This document shows positions 1,261 through 11,122 of a DNA stretch of 23,400 nt, piece by piece. The DNA comes from a virus. A model generated the notes under the pieces. The model did not search any database and was not told the DNA's origin. It saw only the letters and a program-made list of their open reading frames with translations. The stretch's first letter is position 1; every line of letters begins with the position of its first letter. Both the position numbers and the translations under genes were made by a program. The stretch lies in the IMG/VR virus record IMGVR_UViG_3300044644_000433, positions 1-23,400 of that record. One strand, 5' to 3'.

Positions 1261-4200
1261 TGAATATTTTACCATTAATATCACAAGCTGCGGCAGGGCT
1301 TACAGAGTCTGGATGGATTGCTGCTTTAAAAGTAACAGGCACTTATAATAAAGCTAAAGGCATTGCTATAGATGCTGATAAAAATATTTATTCAGTAGGA
1401 ATTTCTAATACTTCTTATACTATAATTACAAAACATAATTCTGATGGTATTTTGCAGTGGCAGAAAAATTTACAAACTTCCGTAGTAGATTCTTTCGCTA
1501 TAGCCATTGATTCTAATAAAAATGTGTATATTACAGGAAGTTCTGGTAATGATATATATTTAGTTAAATATAACGTTTCTGGAATAGTTCAGTGGCAAAA
1601 AAAACTAGGCTCAAATGCTTATGATACATCTACATCTATAGTTATAGATGCAAATGATAATATATATGTTGGAGGTTTTGTAATCGGGCAAGATAACTCT
1701 ATTTTAGTTAAATATGATGTAAATGGTAATAGTATTTGGCAAAAAGGCTTATATATTTCTGGCTCAAAAGCTGGTATTTTTGGAACTTCTATTGATATTA
1801 ATGGTAATGTGCTTGTAGTGGGGCAGGGAGGAGTATATGGAAGTGCCTTTTTATTTTTAGCTAAATATAATTCTTCTGGTATCTTACAATGGCAAAGAAA
1901 GTTAGATACTAGTTCAGAAGATATAGGTTATGGTATTACTTCTGATTCTTTAGGAAATATATATACTATTGGAAGGGTTAACGGTACTAGCTATGGACAA
2001 TATACTTTAATTGCAAAATATAACTCTTCTGGTGTTATACAATGGCAGAGAATATTAGATAATGATTATGCAGATAATGGATATTCTATTACTGTAGATA
2101 GTTTAGATAATATTTTTATAGCGGGAAGTACAATAGATAATGGTTTTATAGCTAAATATAATTCTAATGGAAATATTCAATGGCAGAAACAATTATCTGG
2201 GTCAGCAGGTTCAACTGAATTATATGCTATTGTAGCGGATAATCTAGCTAGTATATATGTAGCTGGTTACACAGGGGGAACTTTAATCCTAGCTAAACTG
2301 CCTAAAAGTGGAATTAGCTTAGGCACTGGTAACTACACAATAAGCGGCAATACTTTAATTTACTCGGATTCTAATTTTATAGAATCTGCTGGTACAGTTG
2401 CAGAATCTAGCTCATCTTTACTTCTTACTTCTTTTGATAATAATCCTTGGGTAACCACTTTAGATGTAACCACTAGAGAAGATACTGCAAATGCAATAAC
2501 TGTAGATTCAAATGAAAATGTTTATGTGGCTGGTTCAGCTTATAACCACGCATATAGTTTTATAATAAAATATAACTCATCTGGTATTTTGCAATGGCAA
2601 AAACAATTAAATATTATTTCTATAACGAGTATTACTGTAGATAGTGCTGGAAATATATATACTACTGGGTATTATACAGGCAGCACTCAAGATATTGTTT
2701 TAGTAAAATATAGTGATACAGGTTCTATTCTATGGCAAAGAATTTTAGCTGGTGCTGGTAGTGACAGAGCTAATTCTATTAAATTAGATGCTTCTAATAA
2801 TGTTTATATAGTAGGAGGTAGTTCTAATAATACTATAATAGCTAAATATAACTCTTCTGGTGTTATACAATGGCAAAATTCTATAGCCTATTATTTAGAT
2901 GAAGGTTTTGGGGTAACTATAGATTCTACAGGGAATATCTATATTTGCGGACAATCAAATTATAGTTCTGCTAATGCAACACAAGCATATATAATAAAAC
3001 TATCATCTGCTGGATTACTGCAATGGCAAAGATTTTTAAATACCCCTACGCTAGAGGATAAATTAAGTTCTGTAGTTAGTGATAGTTCTGGTAATGTGTA
3101 CACAGTAGGGTTAAGTTCTTCTGCAGCAACAACAGCAGTTATTACTATACTTAAATTTAATTCTAATGGAACTTTACAATGGCAAAGAAAATTAGATACA
3201 GTTGGGTATTTAGATTATGCTTCTGGGATTTCTTTAGATAGTTCTAATAATTTATATATTATAGGATATGCTAATGGTAAGATTTTAATAGCTAAATATA
3301 GCAATAATGGTGCTATTCAAGCACAAGCAACTTTAGCTGTTTCTGGGCAAGATGTTACAGGACAAGCTATTATTTCTAACTCTAAAAATATTTATATCTG
3401 TGGAAGAGTAGGTGCATATAGTAATGCGGGAGCGTATGCTTTAGTAGCAAAATTACCTTCTGACCTACTTGCTTCAACTATTAATAGCTCTCCTGTAGTA
3501 CAAACAGCTAGTAATCTTGTAGATTCTTCTGGTATTTTAGATATTATTACAGATACTTCTAATTTTATAATAGCTTTAGATACTTCGGGTTCTTACGATT
3601 CTGCTAATAGTTTAGTTGTAGATAATTCTAATAATATTTATGTTGCAGGGCAAGCTAATGGTAATGGAACTACTTCCTATATTTTTCTAATAAAATATGA
3701 TTCTTCTGGCGTTATACAATGGCAGAAAAAAATAGATAGTTCTTCAGTAGATAATGCTTTGGCAATTACGCTTGATTCATCTAATAATATTTATCTAGCT
3801 GGTCATTCTCCTGGAGGTAGTTTGGCAGATGCACTTATTATTAAATTTAATTCTTTTGGCGATATGCAATGGAACAAACTGTTAGTAGGTGCTAGTAATC
3901 AATTATTTTATGATATAGCAGTAGATAGTTCTGGAAACTCTTACACAATAGGCACTAGTGACTATAATGATTACAGTATTATTATAGCTAAATATGATTC
4001 TAGCGGGAGTTTACAATGGCAAAAAGGTTTTAGCACTACAGGGGTTTCTGATGTTGGGTATGGTATAGTAATTGACTCATCTAATAATAGTTACATAGTA
4101 GGAACTGTTAATTCTGCTATTTGTGTGATAAAATTAAATACTACTGGGAATATTCAATGGCAACGTAAAATAGATGTTACAGCTTCGTTTGACACTGGTT

Positions 4201-4946
4201 ATGCTATAGATTTAGATTCTAGTGGCAATGTATATATAGTTGGACAGATAAATGACAATGCTTCTTCTTATATTTTAATTGCAAAATATAGTAATTCTGG
4301 AACTTTAACTTGGAAAAAATATCTACAAGCCACTTCTGTAGCTAGTTATGGTAAAGGTATATCTGTAGATTCTTCTGGAAATTGTCACATAATAGGGCAA
4401 ACAAATTCTACTACTTCTGCGGCTATAGTAGTTGCTAAAATAGATACATCTGGAAATTTACTATGGCAAACTATAATAAATACTGCTAATAGTTCAGATA
4501 TTGGATATGGAATAGATACAGATTCTAATAATAATGTATATATATCTGGGCAATTATCTGGTAGTACAGCTGCAAATTCTTATGGATTTATAGCTAAATT
4601 GTCTGGCAGTGGTGGTTTGATAGGTAATTCAACTATTTCAGTTTATGATGGTAATTTATCTTTTGGAGATTCCAACGCTTCAGAATCTATATCAACAGTG
4701 ACATTTACTGATACTTCTTTTACAGAAAATACTTGTGCATTAACTGTAAGTGAAGGCAGTTTGCCGCAAACTAAGGTTATTACTGGTTTCTCAATAAATA
4801 CGTCTACTTTAACAGATTCCGCTGGAGCATTTACTAATACTAATTTAACTGTAACTTCTACTACCTATTTAACTGGATTAACTGAAGGAATTATCAGTTT
4901 AGTATCTAGCGATTCTACCGCTACATCTTCAACTTTAACATTATAG
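1260..4946 (+). CDS. Giant tail fibre-like protein made of three seven-bladed beta-propellers (SBBP-type repeats)
   Basis: The 1228 residues consist mainly of 21 copies of a ~45-50 residue repeat: D...N(I/V)Y..G, then I.KYN..G.(I/L)QWQ..L. The repeats form three groups of exactly seven: residues ~17-350, ~396-736 and ~767-1119. Each group opens with a W/F-(I/V) beta strand ending in AL or TL and closes with an AKL(P/S) strand. The three groups are separated by Ser/Thr-rich linkers. Residues 1120-1228 form a Thr/Ser-rich beta-like tail resembling the first linker. No signal peptide is evident, as expected for a virion protein. The start is the ATG overlapping the upstream fibre stop by one base, so the two are probably translationally coupled. 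Location among fibre genes suggests an adsorption or surface-binding role (inference). SBBP propellers also occur in bacterial secreted proteins, so host origin is possible. Catalytic activity is neither visible nor excluded. Confidence 0.8.
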   Translation: MNILPLISQAAAGLTESGWIAALKVTGTYNKAKGIAIDADKNIYSVGISNTSYTIITKHNSDGILQWQKNLQTSVVDSFAIAIDSNKNVYITGSSGNDIYLVKYNVSGIVQWQKKLGSNAYDTSTSIVIDANDNIYVGGFVIGQDNSILVKYDVNGNSIWQKGLYISGSKAGIFGTSIDINGNVLVVGQGGVYGSAFLFLAKYNSSGILQWQRKLDTSSEDIGYGITSDSLGNIYTIGRVNGTSYGQYTLIAKYNSSGVIQWQRILDNDYADNGYSITVDSLDNIFIAGSTIDNGFIAKYNSNGNIQWQKQLSGSAGSTELYAIVADNLASIYVAGYTGGTLILAKLPKSGISLGTGNYTISGNTLIYSDSNFIESAGTVAESSSSLLLTSFDNNPWVTTLDVTTREDTANAITVDSNENVYVAGSAYNHAYSFIIKYNSSGILQWQKQLNIISITSITVDSAGNIYTTGYYTGSTQDIVLVKYSDTGSILWQRILAGAGSDRANSIKLDASNNVYIVGGSSNNTIIAKYNSSGVIQWQNSIAYYLDEGFGVTIDSTGNIYICGQSNYSSANATQAYIIKLSSAGLLQWQRFLNTPTLEDKLSSVVSDSSGNVYTVGLSSSAATTAVITILKFNSNGTLQWQRKLDTVGYLDYASGISLDSSNNLYIIGYANGKILIAKYSNNGAIQAQATLAVSGQDVTGQAIISNSKNIYICGRVGAYSNAGAYALVAKLPSDLLASTINSSPVVQTASNLVDSSGILDIITDTSNFIIALDTSGSYDSANSLVVDNSNNIYVAGQANGNGTTSYIFLIKYDSSGVIQWQKKIDSSSVDNALAITLDSSNNIYLAGHSPGGSLADALIIKFNSFGDMQWNKLLVGASNQLFYDIAVDSSGNSYTIGTSDYNDYSIIIAKYDSSGSLQWQKGFSTTGVSDVGYGIVIDSSNNSYIVGTVNSAICVIKLNTTGNIQWQRKIDVTASFDTGYAIDLDSSGNVYIVGQINDNASSYILIAKYSNSGTLTWKKYLQATSVASYGKGISVDSSGNCHIIGQTNSTTSAAIVVAKIDTSGNLLWQTIINTANSSDIGYGIDTDSNNNVYISGQLSGSTAANSYGFIAKLSGSGGLIGNSTISVYDGNLSFGDSNASESISTVTFTDTSFTENTCALTVSEGSLPQTKVITGFSINTSTLTDSAGAFTNTNLTVTSTTYLTGLTEGIISLVSSDSTATSSTLTL
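1308..4620 (+). repeat. Array of 21 beta-propeller blade repeats in three blocks of seven
   Basis: The blocks are ~1308-2310, ~2446-3468 and ~3559-4617. Counting the D...N.Y..G signature gives seven per block. Some blades stay near-identical in DNA: a 32-base stretch at 2016-2047 recurs exactly at 2844-2875, in different propellers. This suggests ongoing homogenisation or recombination between blades. Confidence 0.75.
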
Positions 4947-4953
4947 GTTTAAA

Positions 4954-5406
4954 ATGCAATTAGCAATTATAGAAAATAATGGCATAAAAATTATAGGAGA
5001 TGCTGTTCAGCTATTTCCTAACGTGTCTTTCCCCTCCACAGAGCCAGAGCAAGAGTTTCTTGAAAATAATTCAGTAATGGTCGTACAACATTGGGAAAAT
5101 TTTGATAATTCTTCTGAAGTTTTAGAACCTTCCGAACCTTATATTAAAGGAAATAAAGTATATACCTATGTAAAACGTGCTAAGACTTTAGCAGAACTTG
5201 AGCAAGAAGAAACTAATATTTTAATAGCTAAAGAAAAAGAAATTAGAGTTAGAAGAAACCAACTTCTTAAAGATTCCGATTGGACTCAAGTAGCTGACGC
5301 TCCTGTAGACAAAGCTGCATGGGCAACTTATAGGCAAGAACTTAGAGATGTAACATCTCAAGAAGGTTTTCCATTTAACGTAGTCTTCCCTAACCCTCCT
5401 TTATAG
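4954..5406 (+). CDS. Phage_tail_APC family protein (tail/fibre assembly chaperone-like)
   Basis: This 150-residue protein ends with the signature of the Phage_tail_APC family: RNQLLKDSDWTQ, then DAPVDKAAWATYRQELRD, then GFPFNV.FPNPP (residues ~100-149). The middle (residues ~70-100) is a charged helix rich in Glu and Lys. The N-terminal ~65 residues are a variable domain with a short beta-like start. In other phages such proteins usually lie just downstream of fibre or side-tail genes and are thought to help fibre folding or attachment; that neighbourhood holds here. The start is the ATG eight bases after the propeller gene stop. The upstream Shine-Dalgarno is weak, so coupling to the upstream gene is likely. 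This family is distinct from the G/GT-type chaperones at 9856-11122 despite the similar name. Confidence 0.85.
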   Translation: MQLAIIENNGIKIIGDAVQLFPNVSFPSTEPEQEFLENNSVMVVQHWENFDNSSEVLEPSEPYIKGNKVYTYVKRAKTLAELEQEETNILIAKEKEIRVRRNQLLKDSDWTQVADAPVDKAAWATYRQELRDVTSQEGFPFNVVFPNPPL

Positions 5407-5415
5407 GATTTAATT

Positions 5416-5571
5416 ATGTCTATCTTTGATAATTTAGTAGAAACAGTAAAAGATGCCGCTGAAGTTGCTATTGAGACAGCAGTTCCTATTCTTCCACATG
5501 AAGTTGTAGAGACAGTTGTTGATGTGACGGTAGATTCAGTAGTTGATGTAGTGTCTGAAGCTATTTCTTAG
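5416..5571 (+). CDS. Small acidic amphipathic protein, 51 residues, function unknown
   Basis: The ATG at 5416 follows AGGAT near the preceding stop and the frame runs to TAG at 5569-5571. The product begins MSIFDNLVETVKDAAEVAIE and ends in a Val/Asp-rich stretch (VVDVTVDSVVDVVSEAIS). Hydrophobic residues recur every three to four positions between acidic ones, fitting one or two amphipathic helices with a Pro break near residues 24-27. It has no cysteine and no clear membrane segment. Its position, packed between an assembly chaperone and two holin-like proteins, argues for a real late gene. I do not recognise a family. It could be a lysis accessory peptide or a virion component, but neither is shown. 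Confidence 0.6.
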   Translation: MSIFDNLVETVKDAAEVAIETAVPILPHEVVETVVDVTVDSVVDVVSEAIS

Positions 5572-5582
5572 CCTAAAAGCCT

Positions 5583-5831
5583 ATGGACTTTCTAAACTTT
5601 ATCACTGAAGTAGGATTTCCAATAGCCGCTGCTTGCGTGGGGATGTATTTTGTCTTCCTCACGCAGAAGTTTATCTTAGATTCTGTACTTGAGAAGGTTA
5701 AAAACCTTATTAATATTATTCAGCAATTAGACAAACGTGTGACATCAATGTCTAATGACATCGTGCATATTGATAATTTAATGTGCAAAGCATTGAAAAT
5801 CCCTCCTGATGACATAAAACAAGGAAAGTGA
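5583..5831 (+). CDS. Small one-helix membrane protein with GFPI motif, holin-like
   Basis: The 82 residues comprise a short N-terminal amphipathic segment, a GFPIAAACVGMYFVFL membrane helix (residues ~11-30), and a polar C-terminal half (residues ~33-68) with heptad-like spacing suggesting a coiled coil (LINIIQQLDKRV..MSNDI). A GFPI motif starting a single membrane helix and followed by a charged coil resembles BhlA/UviB/YvrJ-type small phage or bacteriocin membrane proteins, some of which act as holins. That is a resemblance of layout, not an assured family match. The start keeps the whole segment before the helix. The Shine-Dalgarno is poor. The protein shares layout and motifs with the next gene, so the two are probably paralogs. 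Confidence 0.6.
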   Translation: MDFLNFITEVGFPIAAACVGMYFVFLTQKFILDSVLEKVKNLINIIQQLDKRVTSMSNDIVHIDNLMCKALKIPPDDIKQGK

Positions 5832-5832
5832 T

Positions 5833-6078
5833 ATGGAACTTAAAGATGTGGCTGACTATATCAATCAATATGGATTCCCAATTATTGCATCGATTGGAAT
5901 GGGATACATTGTCTATTATGTTTGGACTTGGACTACAACAATTATAAAACCAATACTTGATGAAGCCTATGTAGTACTTGTGACATTAATAGACCAAATA
6001 CGCATATTAGATTCTGATATGATTCGATTGAAACAGAAATTAAGCACTGTATTACTACTCAAAACACCACATGAATAA
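5833..6078 (+). CDS. Second GFPI-motif small membrane protein, paralog of the upstream gene
   Basis: The 81 residues show the same plan as the preceding protein: an N-terminal helix (MELKDVADYINQY), a GFPIIASIGMGYIVYYVWTW membrane segment (residues ~14-33) rich in aromatic residues, then a C-terminal coil (LIDQIRILDSDMIRLKQKL, ~52-70). Shared features include GFPI.A, GM six to seven residues later, and an I..LD..(M)..D(I/M) pattern in the coil. The Shine-Dalgarno AAGGA lies in the end of the upstream gene, whose stop is two bases before this ATG, so the pair is co-translated. Paired small membrane proteins often work as holin and antiholin or as hetero-oligomers; that role is inferred. It is the last gene before a promoter-like site and the neck module. 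Confidence 0.6.
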   Translation: MELKDVADYINQYGFPIIASIGMGYIVYYVWTWTTTIIKPILDEAYVVLVTLIDQIRILDSDMIRLKQKLSTVLLLKTPHE

Positions 6079-6108: not shown

Positions 6109-6135
6109 AGCACAATCAAATCAAGGAGTTATTTA

Positions 6136-6636
6136 ATGTTTATCGTAGAAGATGGTACTGGAAAAGTGGATGCTAATTCGTATTGTAGCGTTGCGTTTGC
6201 AAATACTTACTTCACGGAAAGAGCAAACGAAACATGGGTTGATACCGATACAGATAAAAAACAAGCCGCATTAATTAAGGCAACAGATTATATTGAACTT
6301 AGATATTCTGTTCAATTTGCTGGCACAAGAATGTATCCAGATAACCCACAAGCATTGTCTTTCCCAAGATATGATAATTCAAGTAAACCAATTGGTGTAC
6401 CACTTGCTATTCAAAAAGCAACTTGTGAATATGCAATTCGTGCATTGAGTGCTGAATTAACAACTGATTATTCAAATGAAGTTGGTGTAAATACACGAAT
6501 CAAAGTTGGTTCAATAGAAAAAGAAACCTCATATCCAACTAAAATTATTTCACAAAAAGTATATAAAAGTTATCCTGCGGCAGATAAATTAGTCGCACTT
6601 TATTTGAAAGCTAATTCTTCACAGGTGATTCGATGA
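6136..6636 (+). CDS. Head-tail connector/adaptor protein (DnaT-like phage family)
   Basis: The 166 residues match the pattern of the phage family labelled DnaT-like ssDNA-binding, which sits at the neck position in many siphoviruses. The signs are an N-terminal VEDGTG..DANSYCSVAFANTYF, a W after ~35 residues, KKQAALIKATDYIELRY, then FPRYD, an IP-like V-P.AI..A..EYA.RAL segment, and a C-terminal KVGSIE...SYP with P..DKLVALYL. The family name suggests DNA binding, but in context the protein most likely forms an adaptor ring below the portal. The start is the ATG with AAGGAG seven bases upstream (6123-6128). The stop overlaps the next start as ATGA. It begins an operon of five genes ending with the tail tube gene. 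Confidence 0.8.
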   Translation: MFIVEDGTGKVDANSYCSVAFANTYFTERANETWVDTDTDKKQAALIKATDYIELRYSVQFAGTRMYPDNPQALSFPRYDNSSKPIGVPLAIQKATCEYAIRALSAELTTDYSNEVGVNTRIKVGSIEKETSYPTKIISQKVYKSYPAADKLVALYLKANSSQVIR

Positions 6637-9736: not shown

Positions 9737-9763
9737 GACCCTCGAAAGAGGGTCTTTCTTTTT
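9737..9763 (+). terminator. Intrinsic terminator after the tail tube gene
   Basis: GACCCTC (9737-9743), a GAAA tetraloop, and GAGGGTC (9748-9754) are followed by a T-rich tract TTTCTTTTT (9755-9763). This is a textbook Rho-independent terminator. It would end the neck/tube transcript before the chaperone genes. Confidence 0.9.
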
Positions 9764-9775
9764 GTAGTAAATCAC

Positions 9776-9805
9776 TTGACTTTGTTTGTGTTACCATGCT
9801 AAGAT
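9776..9805 (+). promoter_or_regulatory. Promoter-like site for the short tail chaperone gene
   Basis: TTGACT at 9776-9781 is followed after 18 bases by TAAGAT at 9800-9805, preceded by an extended -10 TGC (9797-9799). It begins 12 bases after the terminator T-run, which supports a fresh transcription start for the next gene. The predicted leader is about 45 bases. Confidence 0.6.
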
Positions 9806-9855
9806 GACCCTGTTGCATTCGCAATTTTACTAACCAAAATTGAAGGACACCTTAC

Positions 9856-10251
9856 ATGGCAATCTCATTAAAATCGCTCAATGTTGAAGCGGCTTGTGAC
9901 ACCCCTTACGACTTAGATATTGTTGATGAACAAACAGGCAAATCAACAGGTATCACATTAAAAGTTATTGGCGCACATAGCCAAGTCATTACTAAACTTG
10001 TTGCAAAAGCAGTTAATGCTAAACGTCAAGCTGAATCACAATTAGCTAAAAAAGGTAAAGACGTACCTGTGACTAAAGTTGAAGATGATTTAGAATTTGG
10101 TATTGAATTAGCGGCTAAACGTATTGTTGGCTGGTCTGGTATTGAAGAATCATTTACACCAGAACTCGCTTTTGAATTGTGCAAAACAAATCCTGTTATC
10201 CGTGACCAAGTTGTTACGGCTTCAGAAGATATGTCGCACTATACAAAATAG
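9856..10251 (+). CDS. Short tail assembly chaperone (lambda gpG-like)
   Basis: The 131 residues carry CDTPYDLDIVDE near the start (Cys14), a helical middle, then VEDDLEFGIELAAKRIVGW, ESFTPE, and TNPVIRDQVVTASED at the end. Each of these has a counterpart in the first ~115 residues of the next gene. Size and position between the tube and tape measure genes match lambda gpG (140 residues), which coats the unassembled tape measure and recruits tube subunits. The start has GAAGGA eight bases upstream (9842-9847), a strong ribosome binding site. Codon use is of the highly expressed kind (CGT, GGT). No slippage signal extends it: the frames past the stop close within a few codons and the terminator begins 24 bases after the stop. 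It is its own transcription unit between two terminators. Confidence 0.8.
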   Translation: MAISLKSLNVEAACDTPYDLDIVDEQTGKSTGITLKVIGAHSQVITKLVAKAVNAKRQAESQLAKKGKDVPVTKVEDDLEFGIELAAKRIVGWSGIEESFTPELAFELCKTNPVIRDQVVTASEDMSHYTK

Positions 10252-10275
10252 TTTTCTTATATTAAGAAAAACACT

Positions 10276-10314
10276 AAACCCTATTGAGGAAGTTCTTCAA
10301 TAGGGTTTTCTTTT
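10276..10314 (+). terminator. Intrinsic terminator after the short chaperone gene
   Basis: AAACCCTATTGA (10276-10287) pairs with TCAATAGGGTTT (10297-10308) in a 12-bp perfect stem. Inner pairs G.T, G-C and A-T leave a three-base loop. The descending arm merges into TTTTCTTTT (10306-10314). This strong terminator isolates the short chaperone transcript from the long chaperone gene. Confidence 0.92.
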
Positions 10315-10325
10315 GTGAACTAAAA

Positions 10326-10354
10326 TTGACAAATCCAATAATCTGTGAAATAAT
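10326..10354 (+). promoter_or_regulatory. Promoter-like site for the long chaperone and tape measure genes
   Basis: A consensus TTGACA (10326-10331), a 17-base spacer and AATAAT (10349-10354, five of six) with an extended -10 TGA (10346-10348) make this the best promoter match in the window. It lies 11 bases after the terminator T-run. A start near 10361 would leave a leader of only about 20 bases. Confidence 0.7.
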
Positions 10355-10360
10355 AATGAG

Positions 10361-10381
10361 ACATATCCCATACCTAACCAT
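10361..10381 (+). promoter_or_regulatory. Short leader lacking a Shine-Dalgarno sequence before the long chaperone
   Basis: The ~21 bases between the predicted transcription start and the ATG at 10382 are C/A/T-rich and contain no AGGA, GGAG or GAGG. Translation initiation should be weak compared with the short chaperone gene (GAAGGA, eight bases spacing). The ATG itself is supported because the homology with the short form begins only a few residues inside it (Cys7). Confidence 0.5.
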
Positions 10382-11122
10382 ATGAATATTTTACCTATTT
10401 GTGAAACTCCCTATGAATTTGAAGTCATCTCTGAAGTCAGTGGTCAGGGGATGGGTGTTTTCATAAGCGTCATATCTCAATATGCACAGAAGGTGAATTC
10501 AAATCTAAAAGGCACACTACTCGTAAGACAACGTGTGGCTGAAGTAAAAGCATCAGCAACATCATCGTCCGCTTATTATCTTGTGGAAGATGAACGAGAA
10601 TTTGAAATACATTCCGCAGTGCTAAGGGTTGTTGAATGGCGTGAAGCTGAAGAAGAGTTCACATACGATAACCTTCTTGACGTATGTTCCACTAATCAAT
10701 CTATACGAAAACAAATCATTCGTGCTTCCAATGACATTGGATTATTTTTAGATTCATTAGTTGAACAATTAGTTAATTTTACAAAGAATGAATTAAAGCT
10801 ATCTGAGAAACAAAAGGATGGCGCAACGTATAGGGAACATCTTAAGGCTGTCGAGGAAATGACGGGGATTACCCCACAAGAACTAACTACTGTGGAGGTT
10901 AGCCACATTATCATGTACTTGTGGGAGTGGTTCTTAGATTTAAATAGCACACGTCAAAGCGGTATGGGCATGAATGCTATCTCTTACAGCGAAATATGTG
11001 CATGGTGTGAGTTAACAGGTAACCGACCATCACCTTATGAAATACGAGTAATTAAATTACTTGACCGAGTTTATTTAGAGCATTACAACAGCAAACAAGA
11101 TAAAGAATCATCCGATAAATAG
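10382..11122 (+). CDS. Long tail assembly chaperone (lambda gpGT-like), separate paralog of the short form
   Basis: The 246 residues consist of two parts. Residues ~7-115 are a diverged copy of the upstream short chaperone: CETPYEFEVISE, a VEDEREFEI element, LRVVEW, EEEFT, and TNQSIRKQIIRASND. Residues ~120-246 are an extra C-terminal domain with MYLWEWFLDLN and then ISYSEICAWCELTGNRPSPYE plus a LLDRVYLEHY helix. This is typical of the T-like part of phage tail chaperones (Y.EI.AW..LTG...P.E...I..LD). Lambda makes GT (279 residues) by frameshifting out of G; here the long form is a full gene of its own. It should bind the tape measure through the G-like part and tube subunits through the T-like part (family knowledge). 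The tape measure ATG follows 11 bases after the stop. Confidence 0.8.
   Translation: MNILPICETPYEFEVISEVSGQGMGVFISVISQYAQKVNSNLKGTLLVRQRVAEVKASATSSSAYYLVEDEREFEIHSAVLRVVEWREAEEEFTYDNLLDVCSTNQSIRKQIIRASNDIGLFLDSLVEQLVNFTKNELKLSEKQKDGATYREHLKAVEEMTGITPQELTTVEVSHIIMYLWEWFLDLNSTRQSGMGMNAISYSEICAWCELTGNRPSPYEIRVIKLLDRVYLEHYNSKQDKESSDK

Follow-up and report, generated by a model that had tools for sequence, protein, structure and literature searches.

The sequence studied comprises 23,400 bases of an IMG/VR virus record, and the whole of this stretch is referred to as the window. Between the genes for the tube protein and the tape measure protein, the position expected of tail assembly chaperones, lie two adjacent genes which both match families of such chaperones, namely phrog_313 for the short gene and PF23812 for the long gene (Table 1). 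The window phage appears to be a siphovirus, because the genes follow in the order tail terminator, tube protein, chaperones and tape measure, and no sheath gene is present between the terminator and tube genes. The tape measure protein is very long, and its transglycosylase SLT domain occupies residues 1112-1215.

Table 1. Genes, protein parts and candidate expression signals at the tail chaperone locus (positions in the window).
Feature	Position	Strand	Remark
Major tail (tube) protein gene, 604 aa	7891..9705	+	PF18906 Phage_tube_2 E=4.8e-19; phrog_290
Hairpin resembling an intrinsic terminator, downstream of the tail protein gene	9737..9754	+	7-bp stem, 5 G-C, T-run
Promoter-like site of the short gene	9776..9805	+	TTGACT-18-TAAGAT, TG before second hexamer
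Shine-Dalgarno sequence of the short gene	9843..9847	+	AAGGA
Short (G-like) tail assembly chaperone gene, 131 aa	9856..10251	+	phrog_313 'Tail assembly chaperone' E=3.9e-12
Predicted terminator between short and long gene	10276..10308	+	15-bp stem; strongest in scanned region
Predicted promoter of the long gene	10326..10354	+	TTGACA-17-AATAAT, extended -10 (TG); best match in scanned region
Long (GT-like) tail assembly chaperone gene, 246 aa	10382..11122	+	G-like part fused in frame to T-like part
G-like N-terminal part of the long protein, residues 1-120	10382..10741	+	homology to short protein, E=3e-21
Fusion junction of the long gene (GAC...TTAGTT)	10733..10762	+	one base longer than in L201
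T-like domain of the long protein, residues 157-233	10850..11080	+	PF23812 Phage_TAC_18, E=2.8e-21
Tape measure protein gene, 2571 aa	11134..18849	+	PF20155 TMP_3 E=3.5e-39; PF01464 SLT E=2.8e-28

The short protein and the N-terminal part of the long protein were aligned by BLASTP over 119 ungapped columns with 29% identity (E=3e-21). A profile-profile comparison of the short family with the long family gave a probability of 99.6% (E=1.4e-24). Within the pair, the PF23812 T domain is confined to the long protein. The preliminary description of this DNA had stated that the two N-terminal parts are related through a set of shared motifs and that the second protein alone carries a T-like domain; the alignments, in which the motifs are present, and the domain match bear out both statements. 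It had also proposed a comparison of predicted structures, with unrelated folds as the outcome that would speak against it. For both N-terminal parts, AlphaFold2 predicts the same order of elements (strand-strand-helix-helix-strand-helix-helix; pLDDT 83 and 84), and in the long model the last helix of the G part continues towards the T part (residues 106-140). Foldseek matches in the PDB were weak, with the HK97 chaperone 2ob9 ranking first for the short (E=1.3) and fifth for the long protein (E=1.9). Among predicted viral proteins, the long model matched named tail assembly or tape measure chaperones with E about 2e-11 to 4e-4. A sequence search of solved structures returned designed TIM barrels as its sole matches; these lie over a helical charged stretch and were dismissed as chance.

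The reading frames were inspected for signs of recoding. No slippery heptamer is present in the last 60 nt of the window short gene, and no T domain follows that gene in any frame: downstream of it there are 19 open codons in the -1 frame and 63 in the +1 frame, with no match to T in either. The window long gene reads open from G through T, and no canonical heptamer was found at its junction, which speaks against DnaX-like slippage within this gene. The marks of a lambda-type locus, i.e. one gene, a slippery site and T in another frame, are thus absent from the window pair, and the proposal that two separate genes stand in place of one frameshifted gene was confirmed.

Both genes have candidate transcription signals of their own (Table 1). 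A hairpin at most 90 nt after the short gene is found at nine of ten split loci and in 1.7% of random windows. The pattern TTGAC(A/T)-17-(A/C)ATAAT with TG before the second hexamer, at most 90 nt before the long gene, occurs at all ten split loci (2.8% of random windows); across lineages, it is the most strongly conserved block upstream. In the window, a Shine-Dalgarno sequence is present at the short start and absent from the long start; among relatives, it was detected at 7/7 short and 1/7 long starts. These signals would fit strong expression of the short gene and weak expression of the long gene. The conserved terminator, the promoter and the Shine-Dalgarno asymmetry lend good support, at the sequence level, to the earlier suggestion that transcription and initiation control the ratio of the two proteins. 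The ratio, many short to one long, would be set by separate transcription units, with a terminator after the short gene and a promoter before the long gene, and unequal initiation would add to it, the Shine-Dalgarno sequence being present on the short gene and absent from the long gene in most lineages. Since the long gene probably shares its transcript with the tape measure gene, the promoters by themselves do not reveal the long-to-short ratio, and short and long could be coupled to some extent by read-through of the terminator.

An inverted repeat, TTAGAC...GTCTAA, was observed just after the -10 box in the long-gene leader of L031 (about 5440-5490) and L114 (about 6130-6170). In L046 (about 3955-4000), the leader repeat reads ACTAGAC...GTCTAGT with paired changes. 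The repeat is not evident in the window; it is a possible operator or leader hairpin.

Viral contigs were searched with both proteins and with alignments and were then classified by G and T profiles. Besides the window, 23 contigs (counted from the listed contigs, including a few which end inside the long gene) carry a short gene and an in-frame long fusion. They belong to several diverged lineages of uncultivated phages, which reach down to 59% identity in the short and 45% in the long protein. Two contigs, L011 and L047, seem to have single in-frame genes and stop before the place of the short gene. A search for single-gene frameshift versions in related phages, also proposed in the preliminary description, gave about 70 distinct unsplit relatives, in which T is in the -1 frame (n=59) or the +1 frame (n=11) and in no case in frame. 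A canonical X XXY YYZ heptamer, mostly AAATTTT or GGGAAAC, is found in the overlap of 53 of the 59 relatives of the -1 type. All 11 GenBank phages inspected singly are in the single-locus state. In Limnohabitans phage DC31 (L038, 3043-3438), the chaperone is of the +1 type and the GenBank entry lacks a gene annotation for its T frame; other +1 relatives have an ACTTTCG-like site in common at the overlap. Genome contigs were scanned for a host, and the sole result was a frameshifting relative in Caulobacter ginsengisoli (L174, 9007-9755), possibly a prophage.

In other split lineages, additional genes are located between short and long. An AntA antirepressor is found in L031 (4624-5376), and KilA-N proteins are found in L046 (1786-3883), L115 (4503-6397) and L116 (4702-5484). 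The gap in L046 also contains a weak HNH match, the gap in L114 extends over 4579-6058, and genes without recognizable function are present in such gaps as well. Insertions may be especially frequent between short and long, and the split could itself have been caused by one at the G/T junction.

The nearest relative on both G and T is the pair L200/L201. Its gene order is that of the window, and it has a single chaperone locus with a frameshift at AAATTTT. Identity to the window is 48% for the major tail protein, 47% for the tail terminator, 52% for G to the short protein and 54% for T to the long protein. One G match was found per record in L200 and L201, records which may be fragments. Counted from the conserved GAC, the conserved TTAGTT is reached after 24 nt in the window long gene versus 23 nt in the frameshifting L201, and one net extra base at the slip site is the change needed for joining G and T in frame. 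The short genes of L031, L048, L191 and L193 end in NFTK, the peptide that the relatives encode at their slip site; these ends use AAC TTC or AAT TTC codons and form no canonical heptamer. Derivation of the split from a -1 frameshifting ancestor is strongly supported by these comparisons, because the syntenic L200/L201 frameshifts, the junctions differ by one base and the NFTK ends appear to be relics. A single G/T locus with the -1 slip site AAATTTT would have given two copies. One copy would have lost the T frame and the slippery codons to become the short gene, and in the other a net insertion of one base at the slip site would have locked G and T in one frame; the order of these mutations is one that we infer.

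Substitution rates were compared between the window and two split relatives. Against L018, dN and dS are 0.003 and 0.059 for the short gene, 0.089 and 0.307 for the G part of the long gene, and 0.003 and 0.070 for its T part. Against L026, the respective values are 0.012 and 0.311, 0.17 and 0.998, and 0.044 and 0.329. The short gene is under purifying selection (dN/dS about 0.03-0.05). Among near relatives, identity is 98-99% in the short versus 82-91% in the long protein, and the stem length in the tree is 0.97 for the long clade versus 0.41 for the short clade. The long G part hence diverges faster, which supports the suggestion that the two forms evolve separately. Relaxed or altered constraint and recombination probably both contribute to this divergence, because both dN/dS and dS are raised. 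The dS of the long G part (window 10382-10741) exceeds those of the short gene and the T part several-fold, a pattern suggestive of a recombination boundary close to the fusion junction. Of the two proteins, the short one would coat the tape measure protein. The long one would enter the same complex via its G part and recruit tube subunits via its T part. Tentatively, and at less than even odds, frameshifting may have been replaced by two transcriptionally insulated genes of which the long one has a G part that is now a specialised subunit (e.g. a coat end-cap), no longer freely interchangeable with the short protein.

In a first tree, the short clade grouped next to phages that use -1 frameshifting, apart from the long clade. 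This separation, together with the joining of short and long in just 84 of 200 bootstraps (one data set), favours the acquisition of one copy, either the short gene or the long G part, from a related phage by recombination, which would result in the same working arrangement; the dS against L018 (0.31 for the long G part versus 0.06 for the short gene) is a sign of recombination there. Against acquisition, the best tree with L200 added unites the short clade, the long clade and L200 in one group (support 82/85, which is not strong), AU tests of short and long as one clade reject it in no case (p 0.45, 0.44 and 0.37), and the lineage groupings of short and long broadly match, as for genes inherited together. 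We consider acquisition a serious contender, if an unlikely one. A single duplication of short and long within the lineage is compatible with the tree. The leaders of the two genes are no more similar than shuffles, which gives no support to co-duplication of promoter and leader. Of the earlier proposal that duplication replaced recoding, the replacement of recoding by two genes therefore stands, and for the duplication within the lineage compatibility with the tree is what the tests provide.

Two further explanations concern the working of the locus. The long gene alone might yield both forms through proteolysis, an internal frameshift or early termination, with the short gene as a spare or in another task. 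The long protein includes a full G-like part and could in principle give a G-sized product; the better conservation of the short gene in both identity and dN/dS, its better start signal and the lack of a canonical heptamer at the window long-gene junction make this improbable. Less probable still is that frameshifting persists unseen, with the short gene read into T, or that the split is an artefact of assembly or annotation. Nearly all relatives frameshift at this locus, which would favour this explanation, but the open frames behind the short gene match no T, so that no hidden T frame was found, and a terminator and a promoter separate short from long. An artefact of one assembly is refuted by the 23 other contigs with both genes, in some of which short and long lie up to 2.4 kb apart with other genes in between. 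Taken as a whole, the account of a siphovirus TAC-N plus TAC-NC pair, two paralogous genes derived from a frameshifting ancestor with their ratio set by transcription and initiation, is given a probability of about 0.78.

Few recoding events are as widely conserved among tailed phages as the frameshift that produces gpG and gpGT. Frameshifted tail assembly chaperones were reportedly recognized as conserved by Xu, Hendrix and Duda in 2004. The window pair resembles gpG and gpGT of lambda in its position from tube to tape measure gene, in the short and long forms with a related N-terminal part and in the T extension on the long form only (PMC5009743); it differs in having two genes, no slippery site, other N-terminal sequences and separate transcription signals. 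The short:long ratio in lambda is 30:1 (PMC5009743). Homologous G and T, located between a tail protein and downstream tail genes as in the window, are found in L200/L201, Pasteurella phage Pmp13, Mannheimia phage 1152AP2 and Synechococcus phage Ssp-JY42. Unlike the window, these have a single gene with T in the -1 frame, at AAATTTT in L200/L201, GGGAAAC in Pmp13, GGGAAAG in 1152AP2 and AAATTTC in Ssp-JY42.

According to a passage in PMC10885494, which cites Vladimirov, Gautam and Davidson 2022, some T4-like phages encode a short chaperone in one gene and a longer, fused form in another. As far as this description allows comparison, the arrangement of a short and a fused long gene without frameshift is the same as in the window. 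The window differs from the T4-like phages as described there in its siphovirus tail module, the frameshifting syntenic sister, the terminator and promoter conserved between the two genes and the readable junction. An origin of the split independent of the T4-like phages is suggested, because the close relatives of the window frameshift. Some subclusters of the Microbacterium cluster EA phages are said to express two chaperone ORFs separately with no evident frameshift; unlike in the window, a short-plus-fused-long pair is not described for them (PMC7302621). No description of such a pair in a siphovirus was found in the literature searched, whose partial coverage makes this weak evidence. Going by the passage on T4-like myoviruses, the two-gene solution has a precedent there, and the window pair is a new siphovirus variant and not a new kind.

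The lineage has lost a textbook recoding event which its syntenic sister has kept, and the one-base junction and the relic slip-site residues can still be read. This makes it testable whether slippage serves for fixing the ratio only or also for keeping the two N-terminal parts identical, and what changes once short and long can evolve apart. Replacement of slippage by two genes could let the two proteins diverge independently.
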